Shown: positions 2,839-49,681 of the stretch, piece after piece
How the letters are laid out: every line of letters starts with the position of its first letter
Numbering within the stretch: the first letter of the stretch is position 1
Origin: an uncultured Selenomonadaceae bacterium
Lineage (GTDB): Bacteria; Bacillota; Negativicutes; Selenomonadales; Selenomonadaceae
Length of the DNA stretch: 64,000 bases
Direction: 5' to 3'
Assembly: GCA_905234395.1 (NCBI GenBank)
Contig: CAJOHG010000004.1
Location: forward strand, 1 to 64,000
Notes under the pieces: generated by a model
Database searches by the model: none
The model's input: only the letters and a program-made list of their open reading frames with translations
What the model was told of the DNA's origin: nothing
Translations under genes and position numbers: made by a program

Positions 2839-2857
2839 GCAACGTGACGTTGCATCC
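2839..2857 (+). repeat. Palindromic P element, copy 1
   Basis: GCAACGTGACGTTGC (perfect palindrome around one central base) followed by ATCC. It sits at the junction between the duplicated rqcH 3' fragment and the intervening spacer (2839-2919) that leads to the real rqcH end. Its downstream sequence (CTGATCTGCTTT) resembles that after the copy at 38754. Confidence 0.85.
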
Positions 2858-2888
2858 AACTGATCTGCTTTGTAGCCGTCAAAAATTT

Positions 2889-4628
2889 TCAATCGCTTAT
2901 TGTGCTCAAAAATTTTTTCAAATCAACGCGCGGAGTGACGTAAAGCGTCCGTTGATTCGTGAAAATCACAAAGCCAGGTTTCGCGCCCGAAGGTTTCTTG
3001 ACAAACTTACAACGAACATAATCGACGGGCACATTCGAGGAGTTTTGAGCTTTGGAAAAATGCGCGGCGATCTCTGCGGCAAATTGCAAAGTCTCGTCGC
3101 TGACTTGACTTGAACGAATTATGACGTGCGAGCCGGTGATGTCTTTGGTGTGGAGCCACAAATCATCGGGCGCGGCGATTTTGAATGTCAAGCGGTCATT
3201 TTGCGAATTATTTTTCCCGACAAGAATTTCCGTGCCGTCGGGCGCGAAAAATTTCAGCGGCTGTGATTTTTTGCTTAACGCGGTACGTTTTTTGAATTCC
3301 TTGATGTAGCCGCCTGCGATTAGTTCCGTGCGAATCTCGTCAATGTCGGCAAGCGTGGTCGATGAATTCAACGCGTGAACGATGCTTTCCAAATAAAAAA
3401 TTTCTTCGCGACAAAGTTCAATCTGTTCGGCAATGAAGCGCGTCGAACGTTTGAGCTTGTCGTATTTTTTGTAGCAGGCTTGAATGTTTGCGGAGATTGT
3501 CAAACGTTTGTCGAGCGGAATGGAAATTTTTTCGCCGTCATAAATATTTTCAACGGTAATTTCGGCGTCGACGTGATCTTTTAGTCGATAACGATACGTC
3601 GACAAATTATCGGCGCGAATTCTCCAATCGTCGGCATTTTCGGCGGCGGCAAGTTCACTTTCGAGCACGGCGATTTTATTTGTCGCACGACGCAATTCGT
3701 TGCCCGCGAGCTTTGAAAATTTCTCCTTATCGGGCGGCACGTAACTGCCGGAAATTTCATCAGCGGTCTTCAAAAGTTCGGAGAGAGTTTCAAACGTGCG
3801 AATTTCCCCGCGCAGATAGTTCAGCTTGACGGCGGAAATTGCCAATACCTTGCCCGCGTCGACAATCATGCACGGTTTTGAAATTTTTGCGTCGTCACGA
3901 ATGTCAATCAGCGCGTCGCGGAGGCTGTCGAAATCTTTGGCGTCGAGCGCGGAAATTTTTATGTCAACGGGCAGTCCCGCGCGGAAAATCGTTTCGCGAA
4001 CACTTTGCGGCCCGAAACCTTGGCAAACGTTCATGACAGCTTTGTCGAGCCTTAACGTCCCGTCGAGTTTGATTCGCGACAAAATTTCTTCAACGTCGGT
4101 TGCGAAAATGTCAAGCTTATCTTGAGCCGGCGGCAGTTGATAAATTTGATTCGGCAAAACTGTTCGCACTCGGCTTGAGTTCGTGCCGATTTTTTTCAGC
4201 GCGTCGACAATCAGCCCGTCGTGAATCAAAATCAAGTTGCTGTATTTGCCGATGAGTTCCGCCGCGAGTGTGAACGTCTGAATTTTTCCGCCGGCACCGA
4301 TTGAATCAACGTCGATGAAAATTATTCGGTCGAGTTCATGTTGACGGATTGCCGCGATTCTTCCGTTCTCCAAATTTTTTCTAAGCACCATGCAAAACGT
4401 CGGCGGCTCCGGCAAATTTTCGGGAGCTTTTGTCAGCAAATGCAGCGACGGATTTTGCGGCGCGAGCGAGATTCTTAACAGGAACGTCTTGCCCGGTTGA
4501 CGGATTGTCAGCGTCAAATTTGCTTTGTTCTGTTGCGTGATTTTGTCGACGCGCCCGCCGATTAATGCCGTTGAAAGTTCGATTGTCAACGGACGCATTG
4601 AGAAGCCGTCCAAATTCAATGCAATCAT
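2889..4628 (-). CDS. rqcH: RqcH / NFACT-family ribosome quality control protein
   Basis: 579 residues from the ATG at 4628, which has CGGAG just upstream; an earlier in-frame ATG would add residues unlike the family. The N-terminal NFACT-N domain starts ALNLDGFSMRPLTIEL, with the conserved PPTFCMVLRK region and the D-R pair in HELDRII. Helix-hairpin-helix and coiled-coil regions fill the middle, and the C-terminal NFACT-R domain has VGKNNSQNDRLT and HTKDITGSHVII. RqcH binds peptidyl-tRNA on stalled 50S subunits and drives C-terminal alanine tailing. Older annotation names it fibronectin-binding protein FbpA. It is divergent from ilvB, with a probable promoter between them. A fragment of its 3' end is duplicated downstream. 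Confidence 0.93.
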   Translation of the reverse strand: MIALNLDGFSMRPLTIELSTALIGGRVDKITQQNKANLTLTIRQPGKTFLLRISLAPQNPSLHLLTKAPENLPEPPTFCMVLRKNLENGRIAAIRQHELDRIIFIDVDSIGAGGKIQTFTLAAELIGKYSNLILIHDGLIVDALKKIGTNSSRVRTVLPNQIYQLPPAQDKLDIFATDVEEILSRIKLDGTLRLDKAVMNVCQGFGPQSVRETIFRAGLPVDIKISALDAKDFDSLRDALIDIRDDAKISKPCMIVDAGKVLAISAVKLNYLRGEIRTFETLSELLKTADEISGSYVPPDKEKFSKLAGNELRRATNKIAVLESELAAAENADDWRIRADNLSTYRYRLKDHVDAEITVENIYDGEKISIPLDKRLTISANIQACYKKYDKLKRSTRFIAEQIELCREEIFYLESIVHALNSSTTLADIDEIRTELIAGGYIKEFKKRTALSKKSQPLKFFAPDGTEILVGKNNSQNDRLTFKIAAPDDLWLHTKDITGSHVIIRSSQVSDETLQFAAEIAAHFSKAQNSSNVPVDYVRCKFVKKPSGAKPGFVIFTNQRTLYVTPRVDLKKFLSTISD

Positions 4629-7521: not shown

Positions 7522-7543
7522 GCTTGATTCGTGCTGTGATTGA

Positions 7544-7700
7544 TTTTAATTTTTTTAGGATCTACTTTTTCTTTGCTCGCCCAAAGAAAAAGTAGCAAAA
7601 AGAAAGGGCGTTCATCCGCCTGTCGTCGCGTCACGCGACGCGGTCGGCGGCGGCGCACATCCTTGTGCGCCGGGTTTCAGCTCTTTTCAATGTGTCTTTA
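7544..7700 (+). repeat. Three-hairpin H element, copy A, upstream of ilvN
   Basis: Stem 1: CTACTTTTTCTTTG (7562-7575) with CAAAGAAAAAGTAG (7582-7595), loop CTCGCC. Stem 2: CCGCC (7616-7620) with GGCGG (7646-7650), enclosing CGTCGCG/CGCGACG. Stem 3: CGGCGCACA-TCCT-TGTGCGCCG (7651-7672), then GGGTTTCAGCTCT. TTGAAAA (7502-7508) and TTTTCAA (7684-7690) could close the whole structure. Related copies occur at 46789 and 49519 and, shortened, at 35022. The element ends a few bases before the ilvN RBS. Confidence 0.85.
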
Positions 7701-13137: not shown

Positions 13138-13188
13138 GTTGAAAATTTTTGGAGGAAAAATTATGGGTGTCAGATATATCAGCGGCGG
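13138..13188 (+). repeat. Exact duplicate of the aroC 5' edge
   Basis: 51 bases identical to 13258-13308: the GGAGG site, the ATG and the first eight to nine codons of aroC. It ends exactly at the first base of the palindromic P element at 13189. Complete identity suggests a recent event. Confidence 0.95.
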
Positions 13189-13237
13189 GCAACGTGACGT
13201 TGCATCCAATGAGCGCGTTAAAATCTTTAGCGGCTGA
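13163..13237 (+). other. Short leader ORF made from the duplicated aroC start
   Basis: ATG with the aroC RBS; reads MGVRYISGG then QRDVASNERVKIFSG from the P element and spacer, then TGA (24 residues). It is likely to be translated because its initiation region equals that of aroC. A regulatory role is possible but not shown. Confidence 0.55.
13189..13207 (+). repeat. Palindromic P element, copy 2
   Basis: GCAACGTGACGTTGC plus ATCC, followed by AATGAGCGCGTTAAA, a tail shared with the copies at 37126 (inverted), 44426 and 44557. It lies between the two copies of the aroC start. Confidence 0.88.
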
Positions 13238-13282
13238 AATTTTTTGACCGCGTGCATGTTGAAAATTTTTGGAGGAAAAATT

Positions 13283-14434
13283 ATGGGTGTCAGATATATC
13301 AGCGGCGGCGAAAGTCACGGCTCGCGACTCGTTTGCATTTTGGAAGGACTTCCCGCCGGTTTGAAAGTTTCAAGCGATTTTGTCAACGCGGAGCTAAAAC
13401 GTCGTCAAGGCGGCTACGGTCGCGGCGGTCGCATGAAAATCGAAAGTGATTGCGTCGAATTTTTGTCGGGCATTCGATTCGGAGAGACTCTCGGCAGTCC
13501 GATAACCTTGAGCGTTGAAAATCGCGATTGGAAAAATTGGCAAGACCGAATGAGCGCGGAAGGCTCACCTTGCGGCGAAAAAGTCACCAATGCTCGTCCC
13601 GGTCACGCCGATTTGACCGGTGCGGCTAAATATTCTCGTTCGGACGTGCGCGACATTTTGGAACGTTCATCTGCCCGCGAAACGACCATGAGAGTTGCGG
13701 CGGGTGCGTTGTGCAAAATTTTCCTGCAAAATTGCGGCGTCAACATCACGGGAAAAGTTTTGAGTGTCGGCGGCGCGATTGGCGATGAAAAAATTCGTGA
13801 ACGCATTGACGAAGCCAAAGCTCGCGGCGATACTGTCGGCGGGATTTTTGAAGTCAAAGTCAGCGGCGTGCCTGCAGGTCTCGGCAGTCACATTCAATGG
13901 GACAAAAAACTTGACGCGAAATTTGCGGCGGCGTTCATGTCGATTCAAGCTGTCAAGGCTGTTGAATTAGGCGACGGCTTTTCAAACGCTAACAAGTTCG
14001 GCAGTGAAGTCCACGACGAAATTTTTGTAACGTCTAAAGTCGGTGAAGAGTTGCGGTTATCAAACGGTTGCAAAGCATACCCGTTGGATGCAACGTCACG
14101 TTGCAAAATTTTTCGCAAGACCAATCGCGCGGGCGGCTTTGAAGGCGGAATGACCAACGGCGAAGATTTGATTATTCGTGCGGCGATGAAACCGATTCCG
14201 ACGTTGATGAAACCTTTGCAGACCGTCGACATTGCCACGCGTCAACCTGCGACTGCCAGCAAGGAACGTTCGGACACCTGCGCGATTTGGGCGGCTCAAG
14301 TCGTCGGAGAGGCGATGGCGGCTGTCGTCACGGCTGATGCGATTGTTGAAAAATTCGGCGGCGACGCGTTGATTGACACGCTTGCCAATTTGAAACATTA
14401 TCGCGAACGTTTGACGGAGGAATTCGGCTTATGA
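13283..14434 (+). CDS. aroC: Chorismate synthase
   Basis: 383 residues from ATG 13283 behind GGAGGAAAAATT. The enzyme converts EPSP to chorismate with reduced FMN. Family signatures: SGGESHGSRL near the start, RRQGGYGRGGRM, then RSSARETTMRVAAGAL, the TNRAGGFEGGMTNGE segment, and DIATRQPATASKERSDTCAI. Between VHDEIF and RKTNRAGG the protein is roughly 15-20 residues longer than I expect, and this stretch (YPLDATSRCKIF) is encoded by an inverted copy of the palindromic P element at 14086, in frame. aroK overlaps by four bases (ATGA). The 5' edge is duplicated upstream. Confidence 0.96.
   Translation: MGVRYISGGESHGSRLVCILEGLPAGLKVSSDFVNAELKRRQGGYGRGGRMKIESDCVEFLSGIRFGETLGSPITLSVENRDWKNWQDRMSAEGSPCGEKVTNARPGHADLTGAAKYSRSDVRDILERSSARETTMRVAAGALCKIFLQNCGVNITGKVLSVGGAIGDEKIRERIDEAKARGDTVGGIFEVKVSGVPAGLGSHIQWDKKLDAKFAAAFMSIQAVKAVELGDGFSNANKFGSEVHDEIFVTSKVGEELRLSNGCKAYPLDATSRCKIFRKTNRAGGFEGGMTNGEDLIIRAAMKPIPTLMKPLQTVDIATRQPATASKERSDTCAIWAAQVVGEAMAAVVTADAIVEKFGGDALIDTLANLKHYRERLTEEFGL
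14086..14104 (-). repeat. Palindromic P element, copy 3, inside the aroC coding region
   Basis: GGATGCAACGTCACGTTGC, the reverse complement of the P consensus. It is translated as part of L-DATSRC in chorismate synthase, just before the conserved KTNRAGG segment, without breaking the frame. No clear flanking duplication is seen here. Confidence 0.85.
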
Positions 14435-18887: not shown

Positions 18888-19961
18888 TCACCACTTGAAG
18901 ACGCCGCCGCCGTATTTGTACCACGCCGCACAGACGCCTTCGACAGAAACCATGCAAGAGCCGACAGCATGCAACGGTTGACAAATTTTCCCGAACAATG
19001 GGCAATCAATCGGCTTGACAATTCCGCGCAAAACTTCACCGCAACGACAGGCGGATTTTTTTTCGACACGTTCAATTTCAATCGGCTCAACGCGTTCAAT
19101 GTCAAAGCTCGCGAACTCGTCACGCATTTTCAAGCCCGACGCCGGAATTTTCCCGATGCCGCGCCAATCAACGTCCGCAACGTCATAAACCTGCGACAGA
19201 ATCTTTTGCGCCGCGATATTGCCTTCAGCTTTGACGACCGCGCGATAATCGTTTGCAACTTCAATGTGACCGCCGTCAATCTGCTCAAGCAAACTTGCCA
19301 GTGCCGACAAAATTTCATCAGCCTCGAAACCGCCGACTGCGCTAGGAATTTTGAATTCGTCCGCCAAAAAGTTGAAAGCCTTCGCGCCGATGACAACCGC
19401 CACATGTCCCGGCAAAAGGAAGCCGTCAACTTTGACCTGCGAATCGGCGAGCAACATTCTAAGTGCCGGCGGAACGAGTTTTTGCGCAGATAACATGAAC
19501 AAATTTTTCACGCCGCGAGCTTTTGCCGCCAAGATCGTTGCCGCAGCAGTCGGAGCCGTCGTCTCGAATCCTACAGCCAAAAAAATTATTTTCTTGTGCG
19601 GATTGTCCAGCGCGATTTGTATGCAGTCCAGCGGCGAATAGACAATGCGAACATCCGCGCCTTCAGCCGACGCCGTTGCCAAACTTGACCGCGAACCGGG
19701 AACTTTGAGCATGTCGCCGAACGTCGCAATGACAAAATTTTTTCGCGCATAAGCAATCGCCTTGTCAATGTAATCGTCGTTCGTGACGCACACGGGACAG
19801 CCGGGACCGCTGACTAATTCGACGTTTTCGGGCAAAATTTGTCTTATGCCGGAACGGAAAATCGCGACGGTGTGAGTGCCGCAAACTTCCATGAATCGCA
19901 ACGACTTTTTCCCGTCAGCGAGCCGCGAAATTTTTTTGACGAGTTTCAAAGTGTCCGCCAC
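18888..19961 (-). CDS. hypD: Hydrogenase maturation protein HypD
   Basis: 357 residues from GTG 19961, ten bases after AGGAG. Signatures: FMEVCGTHTVAIFRSG, SGPGCPVCVTND, AVGFETTAPTAA, and C-terminal Cys residues in ACRCGEVLRG, CPLFGKICQPL and SCMVSVEGVC that hold a [4Fe-4S] cluster. HypD works with HypC to build the Fe(CN)2CO unit of [NiFe]-hydrogenases. The other hyp genes are not here, which is unusual. Its 5' edge, fused to the end of the upstream glycosyltransferase, is tandemly duplicated; the upstream duplicate carries ATG where the functional copy has GTG. Confidence 0.95.
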   Translation of the reverse strand: MADTLKLVKKISRLADGKKSLRFMEVCGTHTVAIFRSGIRQILPENVELVSGPGCPVCVTNDDYIDKAIAYARKNFVIATFGDMLKVPGSRSSLATASAEGADVRIVYSPLDCIQIALDNPHKKIIFLAVGFETTAPTAAATILAAKARGVKNLFMLSAQKLVPPALRMLLADSQVKVDGFLLPGHVAVVIGAKAFNFLADEFKIPSAVGGFEADEILSALASLLEQIDGGHIEVANDYRAVVKAEGNIAAQKILSQVYDVADVDWRGIGKIPASGLKMRDEFASFDIERVEPIEIERVEKKSACRCGEVLRGIVKPIDCPLFGKICQPLHAVGSCMVSVEGVCAAWYKYGGGVFKW

Positions 19962-20295
19962 GCTGTCATCACTCCTGCCGAATAATTTTTTCAAGACGCC
20001 GCGCAAAATTTACGGGCGAGAAATCTTCACCTGCCGCCTTGAGATTTTCGGAATACGTCGGGAAATTTTTTTCAAAGTCGTTTATAAAAATTGCAGAGAT
20101 TTTTTCCCGTCAGCGAGCCGCGAAATTTTTTTGACGAGTTTAAATGTGTCCGTCATGCCGTCATCACTCCTGCCGAATAATTTTTTCAAGACGCCGCGCA
20201 AAATTCACGGGCGAGAAATCTTCACCTGCCGCCTTGAGATTTTCGGAATACGTCGGAAAATTTTTGTCGAAGTCGTTTATAAAATTCTCCAGCAC
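19906..20295. repeat. 195-bp tandem duplication over the GT4/hypD junction
   Basis: 19906-20100 and 20101-20295 are two copies with roughly 90 percent identity by eye. Each holds the last codons of the glycosyltransferase and the first codons of hypD (minus strand). The functional glycosyltransferase uses the right-hand copy and the functional hypD uses the left-hand copy, so the middle contains a truncated hypD start followed by a truncated glycosyltransferase end. No P element lies at this junction. Confidence 0.92.
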
Positions 20296-22113: not shown

Positions 22114-23250
22114 TTATCGTTGTTCCAAAGATTTTTTCAGCTCGACGATCTCCTCGCGAAGTTTTTTAATTTCCGCCTCCAACTCCTGCGTGCGATTCAG
22201 ATAAAGACTTGCCTTGTTGAAAAGATATGCGGCAAAAGCATGATCGTCGTCGGCATAAAATTCGGACTTGATCCACTCATAAAGTTTGAATTCGGGTTGC
22301 CGCGAATAAAAGCCCTTAGTGGCTCCGATTCTTTGTTTCATGAACCAGTCGAGCATGTTGTAACGATAATCGGGCAAATTCTCAAGGGCGGGCAATTTCA
22401 TCAGAATTCGTTTAAATTCATTGAAGCCGCAATTTACGGCGTGCATTCTCGTAAGAAAAGCCTTTTCGGGAGCAAGTTGATTTTTCGTTGCAGAACCGAT
22501 TCGGCGTCTGCGAATGTACGTGACGTTCGGCGTGATAAGATACCTCTTCGCCAAGCACAACGCCTCTAACGCAAAAGGCATATCCTCGCAAACAACCATA
22601 TCCGCAAAAACGATTTGATTGTCGATTAGAAAGTCGCGCCGATAAAAATGCAACACCGTCGACCAAAAACCATATGCGGGCGGATTGAGCCATTTATGTA
22701 CGCGTTTGGCAACGTCGTCTGTTTCCAAAATCGGCGCAAGCAACTTTTTCTTTCGACCGTATAAGGCAGTGAAGTTTTTCGGATTCGTCAACTCGTTCAT
22801 GTCAGTCATTGCGATGTCGTCTTCAGATTTTGCCTTGCCGCCCCACAACGTGAAAACTCCGTCGGTGTGAACAACTTCGGCTTGAAATTTTTCGGCAAGC
22901 GTCGTGAGTTCTTCAAGAGCAGTCTTCGTGAAGAGGTCGTCGCTGTCAAGGAAGGCGATATATTTTCCGCGGGCACTTTGAATGCCGACGTTTCGCGGAA
23001 CGCCGGGCGCACCCGTATTCTTTGCGAGCTTTATAACATGGAGATTATGCCCCCCCCCCATGGTATTAAAGCGCGGCTTGAAACTTTCAACGACTTCGAC
23101 GGAATTATCGGTTGAGCAATCGTCAATCACGACGACTTCAAAATTTTTCATCGTCTGATAAAGCAAACTCTCCAGCCCTTGCGATATGAATTTTGCCGAA
23201 TTGAACATCGGGATTATCACGCTGACGAGCGGATTAGTTTCTGTTGACAT
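22114..23250 (-). CDS. GT2 glycosyltransferase with an internal ten-G tract
   Basis: 378 residues from ATG 23250 behind AGGAGG. GT-A fold: [20 protein letters not shown], the DDCSTDNS nucleotide-sugar motif, and FLDSDDLF with the DxD-type metal site. The C-terminal part (about residues 230-350) is variable and ends in a heptad-rich helix (EAEIKKLREEIVELKKSLEQ). Between the two motifs the coding strand has ten consecutive G (23050-23059) giving M-G-G-G; the paralogues at 24288 and 25390 lack this insert. A change of one or two G would truncate the protein near residue 80, so expression may be phase-variable. It lies between trpD and trpC. Confidence 0.85.
   Translation of the reverse strand: MSTETNPLVSVIIPMFNSAKFISQGLESLLYQTMKNFEVVVIDDCSTDNSVEVVESFKPRFNTMGGGHNLHVIKLAKNTGAPGVPRNVGIQSARGKYIAFLDSDDLFTKTALEELTTLAEKFQAEVVHTDGVFTLWGGKAKSEDDIAMTDMNELTNPKNFTALYGRKKKLLAPILETDDVAKRVHKWLNPPAYGFWSTVLHFYRRDFLIDNQIVFADMVVCEDMPFALEALCLAKRYLITPNVTYIRRRRIGSATKNQLAPEKAFLTRMHAVNCGFNEFKRILMKLPALENLPDYRYNMLDWFMKQRIGATKGFYSRQPEFKLYEWIKSEFYADDDHAFAAYLFNKASLYLNRTQELEAEIKKLREEIVELKKSLEQR
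23050..23059 (-). repeat. Homopolymer of ten G within a GT2 gene
   Basis: Ten C on the plus strand, ten G in the coding sense, flanked by ACCAT and GCATAATC. It is the only such tract I noticed in the window. In the given length the frame is open. Confidence 0.9.
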
Positions 23251-23254
23251 CAAA

Positions 23255-24274
23255 CTATTCCTCCTGACTGACCGCGACAAATTTTTTCAACGTGTCTAGA
23301 GCTTTGCCGCTGTCGATAAGTTGAGCCGCCAATTCGACGCCCGACTTAAAGCTGTCCGACTTGCCGCCGACATAGAGAGCCGCACCCGCATTCAAAAGGA
23401 CGGCGTTACGTTTGTGACCGTGTTCGCCGCGCAGAATCGCACGAGTTATCGCCGCATTATCGACAGGATCTCCGCCGCGCAAATCGTCACGTGTGCAACG
23501 AGTAAAGCCAAAATCTTCGGGCGCGATGACAAAATTTTTAATCCAGCCGTCGTTAATTTCGCAGATTGAAGTTGGTGCGCTCAATGAAATTTCGTCGAGT
23601 TTGTCTTGACCGTAGACGACCATTCCGCGCTTGACGCCGAGACTAATCAACACTTGTGCGAGCGGTGCAACGAGATATTCAGCGTAGACGCCGAGGATTT
23701 GCATTGACGGTTTGCCGGGATTGGTCAAAGGACCGAGAATATTGAAGACTGTCCTAAATCCCAACTCTTTGCGAATCGCGCCGACGTATTTCATCGAGCT
23801 GTGATATTTCTGCGCGAAGAAAAAACATATGCCGACTTTGTTTAGGAGTTCAACGCATTTTTCGGGCGATTGGTTGATGTTGACGCCGAGAGCTTCCAGA
23901 CAATCGGCAGCACCGCATTTTGACGACGCCGCGCGATTTCCGTGTTTGGCGACCTTCATGCCGCCCGCCGCCGCGATAATCGCCGATGTCGTGGAAATGT
24001 TAAAGCTGTGGGAATTATCGCCGCCCGTGCCGACAATCTCAAACAGTTCCATTCCCGTGTTGACCGTAGTGGCATGTGAACGCATTGCCGCCGCACAGCC
24101 CGCAATTTCGTCCGTAGTCTCCGCGCCCGCACTTTTTGTAGACAGTGCAGATAAAAATGCCGCATTCTGCGTGGGAGTCGTCGTGCCGCTCATGATTTCG
24201 TTCATCACGGCAAACGCCTCGTCGTAAGTCAAATCCTCCTTGTTCACGATTTTAACGATGGCTTCTTTAATCAT
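23255..24274 (-). CDS. trpD: Anthranilate phosphoribosyltransferase
   Basis: 339 residues from ATG 24274 behind AAAGGAG. Signatures: the PRPP loop [40 protein letters not shown], and [11 protein letters not shown]. It attaches phosphoribose to anthranilate. GT2 genes lie on both sides in the same transcript direction. Confidence 0.96.
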
Positions 24275-24287
24275 GTTTGAAACTCCT

Positions 24288-25403
24288 TTAATGCTTTTGA
24301 AACTTTGCAAGCTCCTGATTTAGCCGCATAATCTGAAGTTGCTGAACGTTGACCGTGTTAAATAAATATGCCGCAAAAGCCGCGTCGTCGCCCGAAAATT
24401 CTTTCGCGACAAACTGATTCAGCACGGCGGAATGAATTCGCGCATAAGTTGCCGGAAAATTTTTGGCGTCACTTATTCCGGCTTTGAAAAACCAATTCAG
24501 CACGGCGTAGCGATAATCGGGATGTTCGTTGAAAAAATTGATGCGAGCCATGATTTCTTCAAGAGCCTTGAAACCGAGCGTCAAGTTGCTTACCCATTTG
24601 TGAATGAAATTGCCGACATCATCTTTTTCGCGCGAAATGGATTCGGCGCGGTGTCTGTAAATGTAGACGAGATTCGGCGCAATAATCAATTTTTTTGCCA
24701 AACACACGCAGGCGAAATTTGCAATCGTATCATCCGAGACGGGCATTTGCGGGAAACTGATTTGATTGGCGATCCAAAAATCTCTCTTGCAAAACCAAGC
24801 CCACGTCCCTCTTTGAAAGCCGTCATTCACCCAAATTTGCACGCGTTTTGCCAAATCTTCGGGCAACTCAATCACCTTTTGCAAATTCAGTGATCCCGAT
24901 TCGTAAAGAGCATTGATTTTTTGATTTACGGAAGCGAGCAGAGCGTTTAAATCTTCTCCGTTGTCCGGCATGTTAAAAACTCTGGAAATATTGATAACAT
25001 CGGCTTGAAATTTTTCGGCAAGCGTCGTCAATTCCGCAAGGGCAGTCTTCGTGAAAAAATCGTCGTTGTCCATGAAGGCGAGATATTTTCCGCACGCGAA
25101 GTTGATGCCGACGTTGCGAGGCAGATAAGGCATTCCCGTATTTTTAGCGAGCTTGACCACGTGCAATCGTCCGCCAAAACGTTCCGCAAAATTTTCAACG
25201 ACTTCAACGCTTTTATCGGTTGAGCAGTCATCAACTGCGACGACTTCAAAATCGGTCATCGTCTGATTCAGCAAACTCTCCAGCGTCTGCGGAATAAAAT
25301 TCGCCGCGTTGTACATCGGAATTATCACGCTCACGAGCGGAATTTTTTCGGTGACGGTTACGGCGGGCGAATTGACTTCGCGCCGATTTTTATTTTTTGC
25401 CAT
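24288..25403 (-). CDS. GT2 glycosyltransferase, paralogue 2
   Basis: 371 residues from ATG 25403 behind AGGAG. GT-A motifs [28 protein letters not shown] and FMDNDDFF. The first roughly 110 residues are almost identical, also at DNA level, to those of the next gene upstream (25390-26457), whereas the last 250 differ strongly. That contrast points to recombination of a shared donor-binding half with different acceptor-binding halves. Its start overlaps the stop of the upstream paralogue by 14 bases. Confidence 0.86.
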
Positions 25404-26457
25404 TTAATTTCTCCTGTTGCAAGCGCATAAGTTGAGACCGCCAAATGTTCACCGTGTTAAAAAGATGTGCCGCCAAAGCCGCGTCGTCGGGATGAAAAGC
25501 CTCTTTAATGAATTCGTTGAACTCGAACGGCGGCTTCTTTGCATAATAAGGTTGCGTCGAATACAAAACATCGTTCATATAAAAATCCAGCACGGCATAG
25601 CGATAATCGGGATGTTCGGCGAAAAATTTTATCTCGTCCATAATTTTTTCGTAGGCGTTAAAACCGTCATTCATGACCTTTGCGTATTTTCGGAAACGCG
25701 CAGGAATATCGTCGCGATTTTCGTAGGAAACTGAGCCCTGCCGTTTTTTATATATGTAGGTAAGATTCGGCACGCGCAAAAATTTTTCGGTTTGACACAA
25801 TACGGCAAAACTAAAAAGCATGTCGCCATAGCTTCTCATTTTCGGGAATTGAATTTGATTGCGGACAAGAAAATCCCGCCTGCAAAACATTGTGTAAGGT
25901 TCCCAGTTGTAGCCGCGTTTTACCCAGTATCTGATTCTTTGAGCAAGGTCTTTGGTCTCGAAAGTCGGCTCCGATACGACGGGCAACTTTTGCAATCGAC
26001 AAACCGTGACCTTGTCGTCTTCGGACAAATAGAATGTATCCGAGTGAACGACTTCCGCTTGAAAATTTTCGGCAAGCGTCGACAACTCTTCAAGTGCAGT
26101 CTTCGTATAAAGATCGTCGCTGTCAAGGAAAGCAATGTATTTCCCGCGAGCCATTTGAATTCCGACGTTGCGCGGCAAACCGGGCGTTCCCGTATTCTTT
26201 GCGAGCTTGACTACGTGCAATCGTCCGTCAAAACGTTCCGCAAAATTTTCAACGACTTCAACGCTTTTATCGGTTGAGCAGTCATCAACTGCGACGACTT
26301 CAAAATCGGTCATCGTCTGATTGAGCAAACTCTCCAACGTCTGCGGAATAAAATTCGCCGCGTTGTACATCGGGATTATCACGCTCACGAGCGGAATTTT
26401 TTCGGTGACGGTTACGGCGGGCGAATTGACTTCGCGCCGATTTTTATTTTTTGCCAC
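25390..26457 (-). CDS. GT2 glycosyltransferase, paralogue 3
   Basis: 355 residues from GTG 26457 behind GAGGAGTG. The N-terminal half is nearly the same as in the gene at 24288 ([28 protein letters not shown]), with FLDSDDLY as the metal site. The C-terminal half is distinct (YNWEPYTMFCRRDF and a long helical end). It probably adds a different sugar or uses a different acceptor than its neighbour. It starts five bases after the murB stop. Confidence 0.86.
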   Translation of the reverse strand: MAKNKNRREVNSPAVTVTEKIPLVSVIIPMYNAANFIPQTLESLLNQTMTDFEVVAVDDCSTDKSVEVVENFAERFDGRLHVVKLAKNTGTPGLPRNVGIQMARGKYIAFLDSDDLYTKTALEELSTLAENFQAEVVHSDTFYLSEDDKVTVCRLQKLPVVSEPTFETKDLAQRIRYWVKRGYNWEPYTMFCRRDFLVRNQIQFPKMRSYGDMLFSFAVLCQTEKFLRVPNLTYIYKKRQGSVSYENRDDIPARFRKYAKVMNDGFNAYEKIMDEIKFFAEHPDYRYAVLDFYMNDVLYSTQPYYAKKPPFEFNEFIKEAFHPDDAALAAHLFNTVNIWRSQLMRLQQEKLNGKK

Positions 26458-26461
26458 AAGA

Positions 26462-27382
26462 TCACTCCTCGCCGATGATTCGCACTTCGGGTGACAGCAT
26501 GACGCCGTGAGCCTCATTAACGCGCCGCTTGACCTCCGCAATTAAATTCAGCACATCGGCAGCAGTCGCACCGCCCGTGTTCACGACAAAGCCCGCGTGT
26601 TTTTTAGAGACCATTGCTCCGCCGACGCGCAAGCCTTTTAAGCCGGTTTTGTCAATCAGCGTGCCCGCAAAGTGACCTTTCGGACGTTTGAAGGTTGAGC
26701 CGGCACTTGGCATATCAAGCGGCTGTTTGCTCTCGCGGCGTTCGGTGAAGTCTTCCATTTTGCGTTTGATGTCTTCGACGTTGCCGCGTTGCAAAATCAA
26801 TTCGACTTCGCAAATTGCGCAACCGTTCTCCTGAAAAATGCTGTGACGATAGCCGAGCTGAAGACTTGCGCCGTTGAATTCGATGAGCTCGCCGTTACGA
26901 TTGACCGCCTTGACGCTGGCAACCGCGTTTTTCATTTCGCCGTCATATGCGCCCGCGTTCATGAAGATTGCTCCGCCGATTGAGCCGGGAATTCCGACAG
27001 CAAATTCCATGCCCGTCAAGCCGTTTTCCGCCGCGAACATCGAGACGTTCCTAAGTTCGGCACCTGCACACGCAACGAGCCTTTGACCGTCACATTTCAT
27101 GCCGCCGAAAAATTTTTCCGTGAACTTGACGACGACGCCGCGAATACCTTTGTCGCGCACCAAAACATTCGAGCCGTTGCCCAAGACGACGCAGGGCAAT
27201 TTAAATTCGTCGACGAGCCGAAAAATTTTCGAGACGTCATCCGCGCTTGACGGGAAGATTAAAACATCAGCCGCACCACCGATTTTAAAAGTCGTGTACT
27301 CAAACATCGGCGCGTTGAAAATGAATTGTTCCGCACGCAAAAATTCCGCGAGCCTGTTCCTAAAATTTTCTGTCCAATCCAT
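26462..27382 (-). CDS. murB: UDP-N-acetylenolpyruvoylglucosamine reductase
   Basis: 306 residues, ATG with AGGAG upstream. FAD-binding type-4 signatures: TTFKIGGAADVL, VVLGNGSNVLV, and GIPGSIGGAIFMNAGAYDGE. The substrate loop is YRHSIFQ and the C-terminal motif PSAGSTFKRPKGHFAG. It reduces UDP-GlcNAc-enolpyruvate to UDP-MurNAc for peptidoglycan. A truncated copy of its 5' end lies directly upstream. Confidence 0.96.
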   Translation of the reverse strand: MDWTENFRNRLAEFLRAEQFIFNAPMFEYTTFKIGGAADVLIFPSSADDVSKIFRLVDEFKLPCVVLGNGSNVLVRDKGIRGVVVKFTEKFFGGMKCDGQRLVACAGAELRNVSMFAAENGLTGMEFAVGIPGSIGGAIFMNAGAYDGEMKNAVASVKAVNRNGELIEFNGASLQLGYRHSIFQENGCAICEVELILQRGNVEDIKRKMEDFTERRESKQPLDMPSAGSTFKRPKGHFAGTLIDKTGLKGLRVGGAMVSKKHAGFVVNTGGATAADVLNLIAEVKRRVNEAHGVMLSPEVRIIGEE

Positions 27383-27394
27383 TGAATCAACTCC

Positions 27395-27559
27395 TCAAGC
27401 CGACGCACGGCAATTTGAATTCGTCGACGGGAAGATTAAAACATCAGCCGCACCGCCGATTTTAAACGTCGTGTACTCGAACATTGGCGCGTTGAAAATG
27501 AATTGTTCCGCACGCAAAAATTCCGCGAGTCGATTACCGAAATTTTTTTGCCAATTCAT
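27395..27559 (-). pseudogene. Truncated duplicate of the murB start
   Basis: ATG at 27559 with AGGAG; 54 codons. The first 45 repeat the murB N-terminus with a few changes (MNWQKNFGNRLAEFLRAEQF, FEYTTFKIGGAADVLIFPS). An internal deletion then shifts the frame and the product ends NSNCRASA. It has a working-looking RBS and lies between ilvD and murB, so it may be translated as a peptide, but it cannot have MurB activity. Confidence 0.9.
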
Positions 27560-27571
27560 TGAATCAGCTCC

Positions 27572-29227
27572 TCAAACCTTCAAAACTGCTCCGGTTGATG
27601 CGGAAGTCGTGAGCTTGGCATAACGGGCAAGATAGCCGGTTTTAATCTTCGGTTCGGGCTTAATCCACTCTGCGCGGCGTTTGGCAAGTTCATCGTCTGA
27701 AACTTCGAGTTCGAGCTTGCGATTGGGAATGTCGATAAAAATTTTGTCGCCGTCGTGAATCAGAGCGATATTGCCGCCTTCCATTGCTTCCGGTGAAATG
27801 TGACCAATGCATGCTCCTTGACTGGCACCGCTGAATCGACCGTCCGTTATCAAGCCGACCTTGAGACCTGCGCCCGTTATCGCCGCCGTAGGATTCAACA
27901 TTTCCTGCATGCCGGGACCGCCTTTTGGGCCTTCGTAGCGAATGACGACAACATCTCCGTCGTGAATTTCGTTAGCCATAATCGCGTTGATAGCCGCTTC
28001 TTCCGAATCAAAACATTTCGCCGCGCCGCGATAAACGAGCATGTCTTCGCTGACAGCCGACACTTTAACGACAGCATAATCCGGACAAAGGTTGCCTTGC
28101 AAAATCGCGATGCCGCCCGTTTGACGATAAGGATTGTCGACAGTGTGAATGACATCGGAGCGTTGAATTTGAGCGTTTGCAATTCTTTCGCCGAGCGTGC
28201 CCGTTACCGTCAACGCGTCAAGGTTGAGCAGATTTTTCTTTGAAAGTTCGTGCATGACAGCGTTAATGCCGCCTGCCTCGTCAAGGTCTTGCATGTGATG
28301 AGTTCCCGCAGGACTTAGCTTCGTGATGTACGGTGTCCGCGCAGAAATTTCATCAAAGAGCGTCGCAGGAATTTTAATGCCGCACTCGTTGGCAATCGCC
28401 GTCAAATGCAAAACCGTATTCGATGAGCCGCCAATGCCCATGTCAACGGTTATCGCGTTCTCGAAAGCTTTGCGCGTCAAAATGTCACGCGGGCAAATAT
28501 TTTTCTCCAAAAGTTCCATGATGACTTTGCCGGCACGTTTGGCAAGAATGAATCTGTCGCCGGTGTACGCCGCAGGAATTGTGCCGTTGCCGGGCAGAGC
28601 CATGCCGAGAGCTTCCGATAAACAGTTCATCGTGTTCGCCGTGAAAAGTCCCGCGCAGGAGCCGCAACTCGGACAAGCATGAGCCTCAAGGTCTGTCATT
28701 TCAGCTTCTGACATTTTGCCCGCCGCGAATTTGCCTGCCGCCTCGAACGCTTGACTGACGGAAATATCTTTGCCGTGGAAACGTCCTGCCAACATCGGAC
28801 CGCCGCTGACGATTATTGACGGAATATTTAAACGTGCCGCCGCCATCAACATGCCCGGAACAACTTTATCGCAGTTCGGAATTAAAATCAGCGCGTCGAA
28901 TCCGCTAGCCATTGCAACAGCCTCAATCGAATCGGCGATAAGTTCACGACTTGCCAGCGAATATTTCATGCCGGTATGACCCATTGCAATGCCGTCGCAC
29001 ACGCCGATTGCCGGGAATTCGACAGGTGTACCGCCCGCCGCCGCAACGCCGAGTTTTGCCGCTTCCGTTATCGATTTAAGGTGCATGTGACCGGGAATAA
29101 TCTCGTTGAAAGAATTGCACACGCCGATCAGCGGACGAGACAATTCGTCGACGCCGTAGCCGTTTGCGTGAAATAAACTTCTGTGTGCGCAACGTGTCGC
29201 GCCTTTTTTAACAATGTCACTTCTCAT
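27572..29227 (-). CDS. ilvD: Dihydroxy-acid dehydratase
   Basis: 551 residues, ATG with AAGGAGG 11 bases upstream. Iron-sulfur Cys residues are visible in [23 protein letters not shown] and [13 protein letters not shown]; also TGRF-like [20 protein letters not shown] near the end. It forms the 2-keto acids of isoleucine and valine synthesis. It heads the leftward block of ten genes that ends with holB. ilvC and ilvE are not in the window. Confidence 0.97.
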
Positions 29228-34859: not shown

Positions 34860-35021
34860 GCCGGCACCACTGAGCGGGACGCGAAGTTTGCCGGCACTCA
34901 ACACTACGGGCAGTCTTAACGTTAAAATCATGATGACCAAACGTTAAACGCGCTGATGATCTGAATCGAAGTGAGCGGCTGAAGTTATCGAAAAATTTTC
35001 ATCGCCCCGCGCGTAGCGGTG
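34860..35021. other. Gene-free stretch
   Basis: No gene. GCCGGCA (34860 area) and TGCCGGC about 22 bases later could form a loose stem, and AACGTTAAA occurs twice nearby. TTATCGA at 34987 is repeated at 35092 on the other side of the H element copy D, a possible 7-base target-site duplication. Confidence 0.4.
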
Positions 35022-35086
35022 CCCTTTCTTTTTGCTACTTTTTCTTTGGGCAAGCAAAGAAAAAGTAGATCCTAAAAAAATTAAAA
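35022..35086 (-). repeat. H element, copy D, shortened
   Basis: On the minus strand it begins TTTTAATTTTTTTAGGATC and carries stem 1 (CTACTTTTTCTTTG; the other arm has lost one base), then AAAAAGAAAGGGC. Stems 2 and 3 are absent. It is flanked by TTATCGA direct repeats and lies between convergently oriented genes. Confidence 0.7.
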
Positions 35087-35108
35087 GAAATTTATCGACA
35101 TGCTCGGC

Positions 35109-36578: not shown

Positions 36579-37087
36579 ACGTTGAACTTATCCCGACGCT
36601 TGACAAGGAAAATTTTATCGTCAACATTCAAGCCGCGTTCAAAAAGGCTGTTGTCGAAACTTACGGCGACGACGGCAAGGAAGTTATTCCGCGCGAGGAC
36701 GTTGAGAAATCTTTTGCTGCGGACGGTGCAGAAATTTTGGACATCATCAGCGGCGGACAAATCGTCGGCGGTGCAGTGCTCAAAATCAATCGCGAGACCA
36801 ATCGCAACGAGTTAATGCTTTTCTATGTCAAAGTCGACTGTCACGGCAAAGGTATCGGCTCGGCGGCTTGGCAGGCGATTGAAAAACGTTATCCCGCGAC
36901 AAAAATTTGGGAGACCGTCACGCCGTATTTCGAGAAGCGCAATTTGCATTTCTATATCAACAAGTGCGGTTTTCATGCCGTGGAATTTTTCAATCCGCAT
37001 CACAAAGATCCGAATTTTGACGGTGACGAAGATTTTCCCGGCGGCGATTATTTCTTTAGGTTTGAAAAGAAAATGTTTGAACGCTGA
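36575..37087 (+). CDS. GNAT-family N-acetyltransferase
   Basis: 170 residues; the start overlaps the cobU stop. The acetyl-CoA site is VKVDCHGKGIGSAAWQAIE (Q/R-x-x-G-x-G/A pattern), followed by TVTPYFEKRNLHFYINKCGF. The tail is acidic and aromatic (DGDEDFPGGDYFFRF). The substrate is unknown; its place between two cobalamin genes may only reflect co-transcription. Confidence 0.87.
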   Translation: MNVELIPTLDKENFIVNIQAAFKKAVVETYGDDGKEVIPREDVEKSFAADGAEILDIISGGQIVGGAVLKINRETNRNELMLFYVKVDCHGKGIGSAAWQAIEKRYPATKIWETVTPYFEKRNLHFYINKCGFHAVEFFNPHHKDPNFDGDEDFPGGDYFFRFEKKMFER

Positions 37088-37125
37088 AAATAATTTCGGC
37101 TATCGGAAATTTAATCGCGCTCATT

Positions 37126-37144
37126 GGATGCAACGTCACGTTGC
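37126..37144 (-). repeat. Palindromic P element, copy 4
   Basis: GGATGCAACGTCACGTTGC, inverted relative to copies 1 and 2, with the shared tail (AATGAGCGCGATTAAA on the minus strand). It lies between the GNAT gene and cobQ, 21 bases before the cobQ start. Only a short TTTGAAAAG repeat is seen on either side, so a flanking duplication is doubtful. Confidence 0.82.
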
Positions 37145-38726: not shown

Positions 38727-38753
38727 CAAAAAAATTCCCGCCACATTGACGGG
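38727..38753 (-). repeat. Duplicate of the terminator 5' flank of the RTX gene
   Basis: 27 bases identical to 38818-38844 (seven A, then TTCCCGCCACATTGACGGG). It ends exactly where the P element at 38754 begins, the same arrangement as at rqcH, aroC and the HAD gene. Confidence 0.88.
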
Positions 38754-38772
38754 GCAACGTGACGTTGCATCC
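38754..38772 (+). repeat. Palindromic P element, copy 5
   Basis: GCAACGTGACGTTGC plus ATCC, followed by TGCTGGTCTGCTTTTTAA, a tail related to copy 1. It lies between the two copies of the terminator sequence. Confidence 0.88.
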
Positions 38773-38817
38773 TGCTGGTCTGCTTTTTAATCGATTGATA
38801 ACCGCAATCGCTTTGTG

Positions 38818-38846
38818 CAAAAAAATTCCCGCCACATTGACGGGAA
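38818..38846 (-). terminator. Terminator of the RTX-lectin gene
   Basis: TTCCCGTCAATGTGGCGGGAA hairpin (on the minus strand, written with one base trimmed from the loop: TTCCCG / CGGGAA arms) followed by seven T. It lies 20 bases past the stop codon at 38865. Confidence 0.75.
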
Positions 38847-38864: not shown

Positions 38865-40787
38865 TTATTTCTTGACGGTAGCGGAACTGATAATTTTGTA
38901 AGCGTCGTCGTTTGCGTTGAAAGTCGTCGCCGTGAAGTCGCTTAACGTGGAGGAATTTTCATTGAATTTGAGCGCGGCGGCGTTTAGATTATCGTTGCCC
39001 GTGAAGTTGAGACTGTCAAGCTTGAGCGTGTCGTTGCCGAATTCATTACCGCCACTTGAATGAATGAAATCGTCGACATCGTTATTGCCCCACAATTCGT
39101 CGTTGCTCGCATTACCATTGTTTATGGTGTCCCATTCGCATATGAAAGCACGCGTGTCGCCAACCGTTCCATGTTTGAAATTGCCATCGTTCCATTTGCC
39201 GTCAGAAAATTTATAGTAAAATTCCGCATAATCTTCATTGCTGCTTTCGCTGTTAGGTTCGCCGCTTGCCCAATTTCTGTAAGTTGAAGAATCGCCGTTT
39301 ACCCAAGTCCAAGTGCCTTCTCTTGCCGCGTCGGAAAGTCCGAAATATGCGCTGTTATAGCCGGCAGCTTTCATGAAGATGAACAGCATGTGATTTTCGT
39401 CGTTATCATTAATAACAGCAAGATGCCCGCCGCGAGCCTCGCAGTAAGCTTGTGCTTCTTCCCAAGTGTTTGCGACATCAGAATAAATATAGTAGCTGTG
39501 TCCGTTATAAGTAAGAGCATCGTTAGGATCGCCATTTGCACGTGAAGGAATGGAGACATTATTTGAATTGCCGCCTTTGAGAGTGCCTTGAATGTTAATC
39601 GTTGTGTTCGCCGCGTCCTTGAGTGTAACAGAGCCTTTGCCGACCTTCAACACGACATCATTGCCGACAGTCGAGCGAGTGTATTTTGCACCCGTGATTT
39701 TGAGCGTGTCCGTTGAGCTGAAGCCCGTGATTATATCTTTGCCGTCACCGTTAGCGTACTTGTAAAGAGTTTTTGTTCCGGTGTTGATAATTGAGTCGTT
39801 ACCTTTGCCGCCAATAATCGTGAGCTTTTCGCCGCCGTTATTCCAAATGGTATCGTTGCCGGAGCCTGCGTTAATCGAGACGTTTGAGCCGTAATCGTAG
39901 CTGTTGCTTTGATTAATGATTTTATCGTTGCCGCTGCCTGCTTTAACCGTAGAATTTGCTCCGTAGTTGAGAATTGAATCATTACCCGTACCGGTGGAGA
40001 TTGATGCCTTTGCACTGTCGTTGCTGACCGTGTCGTCACCTGCGCCCGTATTGATTGTGTCGCGTGAACCGGCGGCGTAATAACCTACAATTTCATTGAA
40101 AATCCAATCGTTGCCGTCACCGCTGTTAATCGAGACTCGCGAGCCTGTGTTGGTGATTCTATCTTTGCCTTTGCCACCGCTGATAGTCACGTAAGAGCCG
40201 CTGTTTGTGAATGTGTCGGCGTATTTCGTGCCCGTGAGTTTTTTCTTGTCTTTTGTATTGCTGATATTTTTTCCGCCCGCTAGTGTGCCGTCAATGTTTA
40301 GCGTCGTGTTTGCCGCGTCCTTTAGAGTGATTGAGCCTTTGCCGACCGTGAGGATAACGTCGTTGCCGACCGTTTCTTTTGTGTAAGTGCCGCCCGTGAT
40401 TTTGATTACGCCATTTGAACTCCAGCCCGTGATTAAATCATTGCCATCGCCCGATTTGTACTGATAGAGCACATCATAGCCGTTGCCATAAATCGTATCG
40501 TCGCCTGTACCGCCTTTGACCGTGACATCATCTGCATGACCATAAAGATCAATTAAATCATTACCGCTGCCCGCGTTGATTGAAGAACCATCTCCGCTGT
40601 AAAGTTCGATGGTGTCGTTGCCGGAGCCTGCATTTATTGTCGCGTAATATCCAATGTCATTGTAAATCGAATCGTTGCCCTTGCCGGTGTTGACACTTAC
40701 ATTATCGGCGTAATCGATATGGACTTTGTCTTTCTTTGATGTGCCCGTCCAAGTCGTGTAGTCCGAGCTGATAGTTTTCTTCGCCAT
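38865..40787 (-). CDS. RTX-like calcium-binding repeat protein with a C-type lectin domain
   Basis: 640 residues. It opens MAKKTISSDYTTWTGTSKKD with no Sec signal. Residues of about 25-420 are two blocks of nonapeptide-like repeats (INAGSGNDTI, GKGNDS, GTGDDT), each closed by a similar module (DGNDLITGWSSNGVIKITGG; VGKGSITLKDAANTT). Residues of about 430-555 are a C-type lectin-like domain: WEEAQAYCEARGGHLAVIND, GEPN, WND and the final CEW, with Cys449 and Cys550 placed for the canonical disulfide and EPN/WND suiting Ca2+-dependent sugar binding. The tail is non-repetitive. It is probably secreted, perhaps by a type I system, and may bind a glycan; no secretion genes adjoin. Some repeats lack the GGxGxDxUx consensus, so calcium binding is inferred. 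Confidence 0.8.
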   Translation of the reverse strand: MAKKTISSDYTTWTGTSKKDKVHIDYADNVSVNTGKGNDSIYNDIGYYATINAGSGNDTIELYSGDGSSINAGSGNDLIDLYGHADDVTVKGGTGDDTIYGNGYDVLYQYKSGDGNDLITGWSSNGVIKITGGTYTKETVGNDVILTVGKGSITLKDAANTTLNIDGTLAGGKNISNTKDKKKLTGTKYADTFTNSGSYVTISGGKGKDRITNTGSRVSINSGDGNDWIFNEIVGYYAAGSRDTINTGAGDDTVSNDSAKASISTGTGNDSILNYGANSTVKAGSGNDKIINQSNSYDYGSNVSINAGSGNDTIWNNGGEKLTIIGGKGNDSIINTGTKTLYKYANGDGKDIITGFSSTDTLKITGAKYTRSTVGNDVVLKVGKGSVTLKDAANTTINIQGTLKGGNSNNVSIPSRANGDPNDALTYNGHSYYIYSDVANTWEEAQAYCEARGGHLAVINDNDENHMLFIFMKAAGYNSAYFGLSDAAREGTWTWVNGDSSTYRNWASGEPNSESSNEDYAEFYYKFSDGKWNDGNFKHGTVGDTRAFICEWDTINNGNASNDELWGNNDVDDFIHSSGGNEFGNDTLKLDSLNFTGNDNLNAAALKFNENSSTLSDFTATTFNANDDAYKIISSATVKK

Positions 40788-44425: not shown

Positions 44426-44444
44426 GCAACGTGACTTTGCATCC
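44426..44444 (+). repeat. Palindromic P element, copy 6
   Basis: GCAACGTGACTTTGCATCC, one substitution from consensus, with the tail GATTAGCGCGATTAAG. It opens the first unit of the tandem duplication. Confidence 0.85.
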
Positions 44445-44522
44445 GATTAGCGCGATTAAGTCACGAAAATTTTTATCCGTTCGCCGCACTTGACAGTTAA
44501 AAATTTTTGCGGAGGAATTGAA

Positions 44523-44624
44523 ATGATTAAGATAATTTTTTCCGACATGGACGGCAGCAACGTGACGTTGCATCCGATTAGCGCGATTAAGTCACGAAAA
44601 TTTTTATCCGTTCGCCGCGCTTGA
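44523..44624 (+). other. Short leader ORF made from the duplicated HAD start
   Basis: ATG with GGAGG; reads MIKIIFSDMDG as in the HAD gene, then SNVTLHPISAIKSRKFLSV encoded by the P element and tail, ending RRA (33 residues). It stops 29 bases before the functional start codon. Confidence 0.55.
44557..44575 (+). repeat. Palindromic P element, copy 7
   Basis: GCAACGTGACGTTGCATCC with the tail GATTAGCGCGATTAAG. It joins the truncated HAD start to the second, functional unit. Confidence 0.88.
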
Positions 44625-44653
44625 CAGTTAAAAACTTTTACGGAGGAATTGAA

Positions 44654-45457
44654 ATGATTAAGATAATTTTTTCCGACATGGACGGCACGCTTTTGACGAG
44701 CGAAAATAAATTGCCCGAAGGCTTCGACGAGGCGATGACCGAACTTAAACGCCGCAACGTTCTCTTTGCACCGGCGAGCGGTCGACAATATTTTTCTCTG
44801 CTCAAATCGTTTGAAAAGTATCGTGACGACTTCCTGTTCCTCGGCGAGAACGGGACGCTTGTCATGCACAAGGGCAAAGAAATTTTCAGCTGTCCGCTTG
44901 ACGTTGAAGCAGCTAAAAAAGTTTTGTCGGCGACTGACGGCTTTGAAAATGTTCTGCGCGTTTATTGCGGCAAAAAGGACGCTTATCTTCGCCGCGACCA
45001 GGATACGCCCGAATTTCACGCCGAGCTTGACAAATATTACACGCACAACGGCGTTGTCGACAACTTCAGCGAAATTCGCGACGTTCCGTTGAAACTTGCC
45101 TTCTTTGACCCGACTGCTCACGCCAAGGAAAATATCTACGACAAAATCTCTCACTTTCGCGACACGTTGCAAGTTGTTTTGAGCTCCGATTATTGGGTTG
45201 ACGTGATGAATCCGAACATCAACAAGGGCGCGGCGATTAAAAATATTCAGCGCGTGATGAATTTTGCTCCCGAAGAGTGCGCGGCGTTCGGCGACTACCT
45301 CAACGATTTTGAAATGCTTCAAGCTGTCGGCTACGGCTTTGCTATGGCGAATGCTCATCCCGATTTGAAACGCATTGCCAGATTCGAGACGGAGAGCAAC
45401 GATCAAGCAGGCGTTATCGTCGGGATTCGTCGGCTAATCGCTTACGGGTTGATTTGA
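44654..45457 (+). CDS. Cof-type HAD-IIB hydrolase
   Basis: 267 residues from ATG 44654 behind GGAGG. HAD motif I FSDMDGTLL, motif II ASGRQ (Ser in APASG), the Lys of motif III in NKGAAIKNI, motif IV AAFGDYLNDFEML. The cap is of the IIB type. Probably a phosphatase acting on sugar phosphates or a related metabolite. ispD starts two bases after the stop. Its 5' edge is tandemly duplicated. Confidence 0.92.
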   Translation: MIKIIFSDMDGTLLTSENKLPEGFDEAMTELKRRNVLFAPASGRQYFSLLKSFEKYRDDFLFLGENGTLVMHKGKEIFSCPLDVEAAKKVLSATDGFENVLRVYCGKKDAYLRRDQDTPEFHAELDKYYTHNGVVDNFSEIRDVPLKLAFFDPTAHAKENIYDKISHFRDTLQVVLSSDYWVDVMNPNINKGAAIKNIQRVMNFAPEECAAFGDYLNDFEMLQAVGYGFAMANAHPDLKRIARFETESNDQAGVIVGIRRLIAYGLI

Positions 45458-49657: not shown

Positions 49658-49681
49658 AGCAACAGCATCTAAGGAGATTGC

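Follow-up and report, generated by a model that had tools for sequence, protein, structure and literature searches.

The aroC gene of a rumen bacterium carries a 66-base mobile element in frame

The stretch of DNA analyzed here, which we call the window (64 kb, from the genome designated G000), contains an aroC gene with one copy of a short palindromic element inside its coding region and a second copy at its start. The features of the locus are as follows.

13283–14434, plus strand: aroC, encoding a chorismate synthase of 383 amino acids (PF01264, E = 1.6e-107)
14039–14104, minus strand: element copy inside aroC, with a type B tail
14086–14104, minus strand: nearly invariant head of the copy inside aroC, consisting of a 15-nt palindrome followed by ATCC
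13189–13257, plus strand: second element copy, at the start of aroC, with a type A tail
13138–13188, plus strand: upstream copy of a 51-bp duplication that holds the ribosome site, the ATG and the first aroC codons (51 of 51 positions identical to 13258–13308)
13258–13308, plus strand: downstream copy of the 51-bp duplication and start of the intact aroC frame

Plus-strand positions 14086–14104 (GGATGCAACGTCACGTTGC) are translated as (L)DATSRC directly ahead of KIFRKTNRAGG in AroC, and the DATSRC codons are the 19-mer GCAACGTGACGTTGCATCC read on the minus strand. This confirms the preliminary description, in which an inverted copy at 14086 was said to encode LDATSRC within chorismate synthase before KTNRAGG. 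The AroC loop between HDEIF and KIFRKTNRAGG holds the residues VTSKVGEELRLSNGCKAYPLDATSRC, where elsewhere VDGG or a similar short loop is found. AroC matches were obtained in 58 of the 60 genus genomes searched, the own genome among them. The protein measures 351–363 amino acids in 28 of the 29 relatives read (the 29th is a truncated record), compared with 383 here, and none of the 29 has the insert in the loop from HDEIF to TN(R/H)AGG. In the closest relative, G162, whose AroC is 95% identical in amino acid sequence, the gene is exactly 66 nt shorter at the place of the insert, where it reads TTTGT-TGACGGCG-GCAAAATTTTTC. The internal copy therefore represents a net gain of 66 nt, or 22 codons, in frame, with about 9 native nucleotides replaced and no flanking duplication at 14039–14104. 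An excess of 15–20 residues had been proposed, and while the protein is indeed longer the size of the excess has to be corrected to 22; similarly, the proposed palindrome range of 14020–14140 does enclose the element but takes in native sequence on both sides of its actual extent, about 14039–14104. The copy at the gene start is absent from that description. The insert is predicted to be unstructured, with pLDDT below 50 at residues 240–285 of a model of modest quality (mean 70.7 over the whole model), and it was related to the experimental structure 1q1l by sequence alignment alone. A chance match had been expected to show itself in relatives with an equally long loop of unrelated sequence. 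The relatives lack the segment, and coincidence is not upheld. We conclude that 14039–14104 is a copy of a dispersed mobile element and not a chance palindrome.

Matching the 19-mer at up to three mismatches gave 9 matches in the window compared with 0.06 expected. These represent seven copies because two of the nine are antiparallel readings of the same palindromes. In each copy the head has at most one mismatch and leads into a related tail of about 45 nt. Besides the two in aroC, the copies are:

2839–2919, plus strand: element copy with an 86-bp duplication (2753–2838 and 2920–3005, 79 of 86 identical)
37081–37144, minus strand: element copy without a clear duplication
38754–38817, plus strand: element copy with a perfect 27-bp duplication (38727–38753 and 38818–38844)
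44426–44490, plus strand: element copy, first in a tandem 131-bp unit, head with one mismatch
44557–44621, plus strand: element copy, second in the tandem 131-bp unit

The 27-bp duplication at the 38754 copy ends in the hairpin CCCGCC..GACGGG, and the 66-bp flank of the tandem unit (44491–44556 and 44622–44687) duplicates the start of a gene near the 44557 copy; this gene begins MIKIIFSDMDGTLL, and we take it to be HAD-like. G162 shares the copy at the aroC start together with its duplication, and its head there is GCAACGTGACGAGGCATCC, a near-palindrome that is a perfect palindrome in G000. At this site the two species differ in their heads, one having GAGG and one GTTG (L085 of G162 compared with window position 13189); either the palindrome was perfected in one or its perfection was lost in the other. 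The GAGG head occurs nine times in G000 and is present in 3 of the 66 genus genomes in all.

Across its copies the element is about 66–80 nt long and consists of a nearly invariant 19-nt head (GCAACGTGACGTTGCATCC) and a variable tail of about 45 nt. The head folds as a 6-bp hairpin plus ATCC, and the palindrome is found at one element end only. G000 has 78 head matches at up to two mismatches, 52 of them exact; three of the 78 are antiparallel readings, which left 75 distinct copies for analysis. Tails usually share 65–80% identity with their nearest paralogues and 87–93% with orthologues, compared with 48% for shuffled sequence. One recurrent tail type reads ACGCG, about 30 variable nucleotides and then CACCGCGCTTGAA, and a second reads AACGGGTMTGCTTTGCAA. 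The tails are lineage specific, RNAalifold gave no convincing shared fold for them, and no terminal inverted repeat between head and tail was seen in the element alignments. A second stem starting about 3–5 nt past ATCC showed positional enrichment in the genus and distant bacterial sets, with no such enrichment in the viral set. In a swap test, the second hairpin was found in 38% of observed compared with 14% of swapped cases in the non-Selenomonadaceae set, and the same test on the own genome showed no effect. The arms of this stem covary in some Clostridia (CCGCC/GGCGG, TCGCC/GGCGA, GCGCC/GGCGC). A known RNA or riboswitch was rejected as an identity for the element, as the window has no Rfam match at gathering score, and eight element loci compared with Rfam at E ≤ 1 matched a neighboring tRNA alone. 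Heads also occur in tandem arrays, with a 66-nt period at G168 C15:47558-47774 and periods of 118–121 nt at G587 C61:4971-5346 and G162 C27:7036-7292.

The element was found in 41 of 66 genus genomes. A family sample gave 16 positive genomes of 151, all of the own genus, with 0 of 123 in other genera, and a sample of the own phylum gave 1 of 398, which was the own genome itself. A scan of one genome per species returned at least 115 stretches with the head, and among the 80 listed many lie outside Selenomonadaceae. Heads were counted at up to one mismatch in 20 distant genomes picked for having a match. Propionigenium maris DSM 9537 has 70 and a Fusobacteriaceae genome 19; a Planctomycetaceae genome has 40, a Methylacidiphilaceae genome 30, and two Verrucomicrobia have 11 and 4. 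The other fourteen, titled as Clostridia or one of their families, have between 1 and 42 each, and the reversed head pattern had no match in any of the 20. We take the families that carry the head to belong, beyond Bacillota, to Fusobacteriota, Planctomycetota and Verrucomicrobiota, and the identical 19-mer is found in at least four phyla, Bacillota included. An end that is identical letter for letter across unrelated phyla calls for a common enzyme. The head was present in 33 stretches of viral contigs, compared with 0, 0 and 0 stretches for the three 19-mers used as controls. With a 32-nt query, the phage collection gave no whole-query match and plasmids gave one partial match (91% coverage, E = 0.7). 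The head sequence was not found as a repeat in CC-licensed PMC literature, where the exact sequence turned up in two papers that by their titles belong to rodent or heart physiology, nor were such repeats found in literature naming Quinella. With many head copies in unrelated bacteria and in phages, the element looks like an undescribed, tiny piece of jumping DNA.

The insertion points favor the 3′ base of hairpins, both tRNA genes and terminator-like stems. In the genus set, 51 of 159 stems ending at −1 scored at least 14, compared with 23.7 (SD 4.1) at offsets 6–30; an example is the stem CCCGCAAGATTTTTCCTGCGGG before a head in G162. The distant set showed no clear preference for a hairpin at −1, and offset 5 was prominent instead. 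ARAGORN identified tRNA genes in 3 of 288 flank sets, and in all three the head-side tRNA abuts the head exactly, at the 5′ end of a tRNA-Phe, the 5′ end of a tRNA-Gly and the 3′ end of a tRNA-Pro, the last in a Ruminococcaceae genome. As for the immediate sequence context, all 14 Propionigenium copies read are preceded by AAAAA or GAAAA, mostly as ATAAAAA, and after most of them comes TAACAATAAAAA or a similar stretch. In the Methylacidiphilaceae loci L480, L489 and L492 the head lies between the complementary arms CCAGCGTAAC .. GTTACGCTG or similar ones, an arrangement that resembles a larger hairpin with the head in its loop.

At least six copies in the own genome are in frame in conserved genes (aroC, BcrAD_BadFG+DUF2229, DUF512, YlxR, Peptidase_U32 and Ribonuclease_3). 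Reading frames that stay open across the element connect with conserved domains or lie next to them, in different frames and in both orientations (the DUF512 case being DUF512/radical SAM). The repeated PQIENGIGMTRNFIEE around the element in the DUF512 protein arises because the element and a 49-nt duplication jointly keep the frame. An HSP70 gene may be interrupted by the element, with a stop just upstream. One phage contig has two oppositely oriented heads, each of them in frame within the gene for the terminase large subunit (PF05876, PF20454). Among 14 intergenic viral copies, four (L365, L366, L369 and L380) have a head that starts directly past the preceding stop codon.

The hairpin-base preference and the tandem units would suit a process without any transposase, in which template switching at hairpins, as an error of host replication, copies the double hairpin to other hairpins. 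This possibility was raised for mitochondrial hairpin elements, and the GAGG/GTTG switch at one orthologous site looks like the correction of an imperfect palindrome. However, at least four phyla have the 19-mer in identical form, which calls for a shared recognizing factor or strong selection that replication error would not provide, and we consider replication error an improbable origin.

Flanking duplications were called at a repeat score of at least 15. By this measure the DNA before the head recurs right after the tail in 39 of the 75 copies in G000, about 5 of which are the second copy in a tandem unit; swapped flanks gave 0 of 375 and random points 1 of 400. In 33 of the 39 the repeat stops precisely at the head, and duplication lengths run from 15 to over 100 bp; some insertions have small deletions instead. 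The other 36 copies, the internal aroC copy included, were below the threshold. Duplications were likewise found at 17 of 37 Selenomonadaceae loci of the per-species scan compared with 0 of 148 controls, where some of the loci may duplicate genomes sampled under our G designations, and at 10 of 48 loci in a mixed set of Clostridia and others compared with 1 of 192 controls. None was found among 38 viral loci, and G147 had a duplication in just 2 of 20 copies. In G058, 6 of 23 real copies and 8 of 92 swapped controls reached the threshold, and this genome was left out of the duplication support because its flanks are themselves repetitive.

Comparison with G162 was informative for 14 copies with both flanks alignable, at which seven sites were empty, five were filled (three of these called from the extent of BLAST matches alone) and two were unclear. 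At the empty sites of L002 and L019 the duplicated segment is single, and L048 behaves likewise, if less cleanly; insertions without a duplication, the internal aroC copy included, replaced a few bases in the same comparison. With half of the alignable sites empty, the genome comparison indicates that the element is mobile. Where the duplicate includes a ribosome site and start codon (13138–13308, 44491–44687 and L035), an intact frame persists downstream, and the duplication often restores an interrupted gene start, as at the second aroC copy with its 51 of 51 identical positions. We conclude that genes tolerate the element if it keeps their frame or if their start is restored by the duplication.

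Taken together, we think that the aroC segment is probably one copy of a mobile element, non-autonomous and about 66–80 nt long, which would be moved by a factor acting in trans through staggered nicks and fill-in. Such a factor would recognize the head and would either nick both strands of the target, at points tens of bases from each other, or nick and copy. The precise head end and the imprecise tail end would then be joined to the target, and fill-in of the staggered nicks would make the duplication. The element would become protein-coding by accident, surviving where it falls in a flexible loop of the host protein, as in AroC. Far-apart cutting by a head-recognizing enzyme would fit the combination of a precise and a ragged end, a duplication of any length or none, and targets beside hairpins. 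Counting against this reading are the searches that found no mobilizer, the roughly half of copies that have no duplication, and the viral copies, which show neither duplications nor an enrichment of the second hairpin. Recent insertions, moreover, lack a close sibling tail in the genome (best paralogue usually 0.65–0.80 compared with 0.87–0.93 for orthologues), which a simple copy-and-paste would not predict.

A SINE-like retroelement could also leave an exact and a ragged end, together with either duplications (13 to over 100 bp) or small deletions. In this scheme an RNA with the complement of the head at its 3′ end would be reverse-transcribed into a nicked target, so that one end is exact, the other varies, and the target is duplicated over a variable length or not at all. 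Error-prone copying would in addition account for the tail diversity. We regard this origin, and the account of the duplications that comes with it, as unlikely: G000, G058, G140 and G187 have no RVT_1 (PF00078) match, where other capable polymerases would fall outside PF00078, and G058 is 99% complete with 56 head matches.

The duplication lengths also match the range of 8–514 bp given for IS1549/IS1634 in the cited portion of that work (PMC2266710), which raises the possibility that the element is a MITE of an IS4-superfamily element of this kind. PF01609 was found in 7 of 18 genomes searched, all seven of them carriers, but it is missing from 5 of 12 carriers searched (G058, G148, G187, G166 and G585). 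No terminal inverted repeat linking head and tail was seen in alignments and no full IS with the head end was found. We regard this derivation as very unlikely. IS1549 and IS1634 are moreover full ISs that encode a DDE transposase, with long variable direct repeats for which, according to the cited excerpt, no mechanistic model had been proposed as of 2008 (PMC2266710), whereas the element here contains no coding sequence and several carriers lack PF01609.

The anatomy of a tag beside a hairpin resembles REPs as far as the cited extract describes them (PMC3733652), and a REP-type repeat with GGAT as its tag could in principle be moved by an IS200/IS605-like (RAYT) transposase. The same extract presents the GTAG- and CGTC-tagged REP families as high-copy tagged hairpins in several phyla, with the CGTC class lacking a dedicated transposase (PMC3733652). 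However, just 7 of 66 genus genomes have a PF01797 match, which G000, G058, G140, G148 and G187 all lack, the tags named in the extract are GTAG and CGTC where ours is a nearly invariant ATCC/GGAT, and long duplications are outside the REP description in that extract (PMC3733652). The second hairpin and the target duplications likewise separate our element from REPs. Such a mobilization is very unlikely overall, and within the genus a REP/RAYT origin is largely refuted.

Returning to a head-recognizing factor that acts in trans, we searched for it beside the element in 113 distant loci, each of up to 14 kb, and clustered their ORFs of 110 residues or more; no encoded protein was widely shared, and the largest cluster covered 8 loci. 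RAYT (PF01797), reverse transcriptase (PF00078) and DDE_Tnp_1 (PF01609) were each rejected as a universal mobilizer, being absent from element-rich genomes, in profile searches that covered these three Pfam families in mostly incomplete genomes. Propionigenium maris DSM 9537, as a named carrier strain, makes the question of the mobilizer testable.

The tail diversity of recent insertions is beyond every model considered. A bolder reading, which we offer tentatively, is that of a new class of mobile DNA in which the 19-nt hairpin is the sole fixed part, one factor serves Bacillota, Fusobacteriota, Planctomycetota, Verrucomicrobiota and phages, insertion at hairpins proceeds by staggered cuts tens of bases apart, and the tail is rewritten at or after each jump. 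If true, tails would differ between lineages or even between copies, with the head almost constant, and the duplication would often rescue the gene that was hit.

Protein-coding palindromes are known from Rickettsia and Wolbachia, and here an element much smaller than the RPE codes for parts of proteins in a rumen bacterium and for part of the terminase of a phage. The suggestion of a mobile palindromic element in frame in aroC, outside Rickettsia, is supported by the empty sites and the insert-free relatives, whereas its grouping with RPEs is not supported, given the size, the single palindromic end, the long duplications and a host range wider than Negativicutes. RPEs, as entered in the cited part of the survey, measure 105–146 bp and have terminal inverted repeats, with the target site duplication given as unknown (PMC2229807). 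The likeness, limited to the cited portions, is that of a small dispersed palindromic repeat found in frame within conserved protein genes that are unrelated to one another (PMC10969869, PMC2229807). Compared by description only, our element differs in its length of about 66–80 nt, its one palindromic end, its long duplications in about half of copies, its several frames and both orientations, and its many phyla. YPAL/RU-2 of Yersinia and Erwinia, listed in the same part at 168 bp with mobility predicted from empty and filled sites, is similar in its variable duplications (3–26 bp) and targets beside dyad symmetry (PMC2229807); the duplications here exceed 80 bp, again compared by description only. 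Mitochondrial double-hairpin or repetitive hairpin elements, in the cited excerpt, resemble ours in having no known enzyme and in occurring occasionally in genes (PMC2800124), but those are organellar, and this comparison too is by description only. In behavior, our element is closest to RPEs within genes and to YPAL at the target, and it appears set apart from both by their descriptions.

The window also contains other repeats. A dispersed palindromic repeat, TTTTTCTTTGGGC .. GCAAAGAAAAAGTAG, occurs at 7539–7609, 35021–35091 and 46789–46836, and at L015 and L063 the present element lies beside or inside it. A three-copy repeat with the hairpin GGCGCACATCCTTGTGCGCC is found at 7648–7700, 46883–46935 and 49606–49658. 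Near-identical direct duplications are present at 19894–20283 (adjacent copies of 195 bp, 93%) and 27249–27578 (153-bp copies 177 bp apart, 90%), and three related blocks at 22862–26406, with spacings of 2108–2123 and 1054 bp and up to 87% identity, are repeated gene modules. Finally, 39568–40709 and 53973–63881 are long repetitive coding regions, surface-protein-like, with many imperfect repeats of 34–54 nt.
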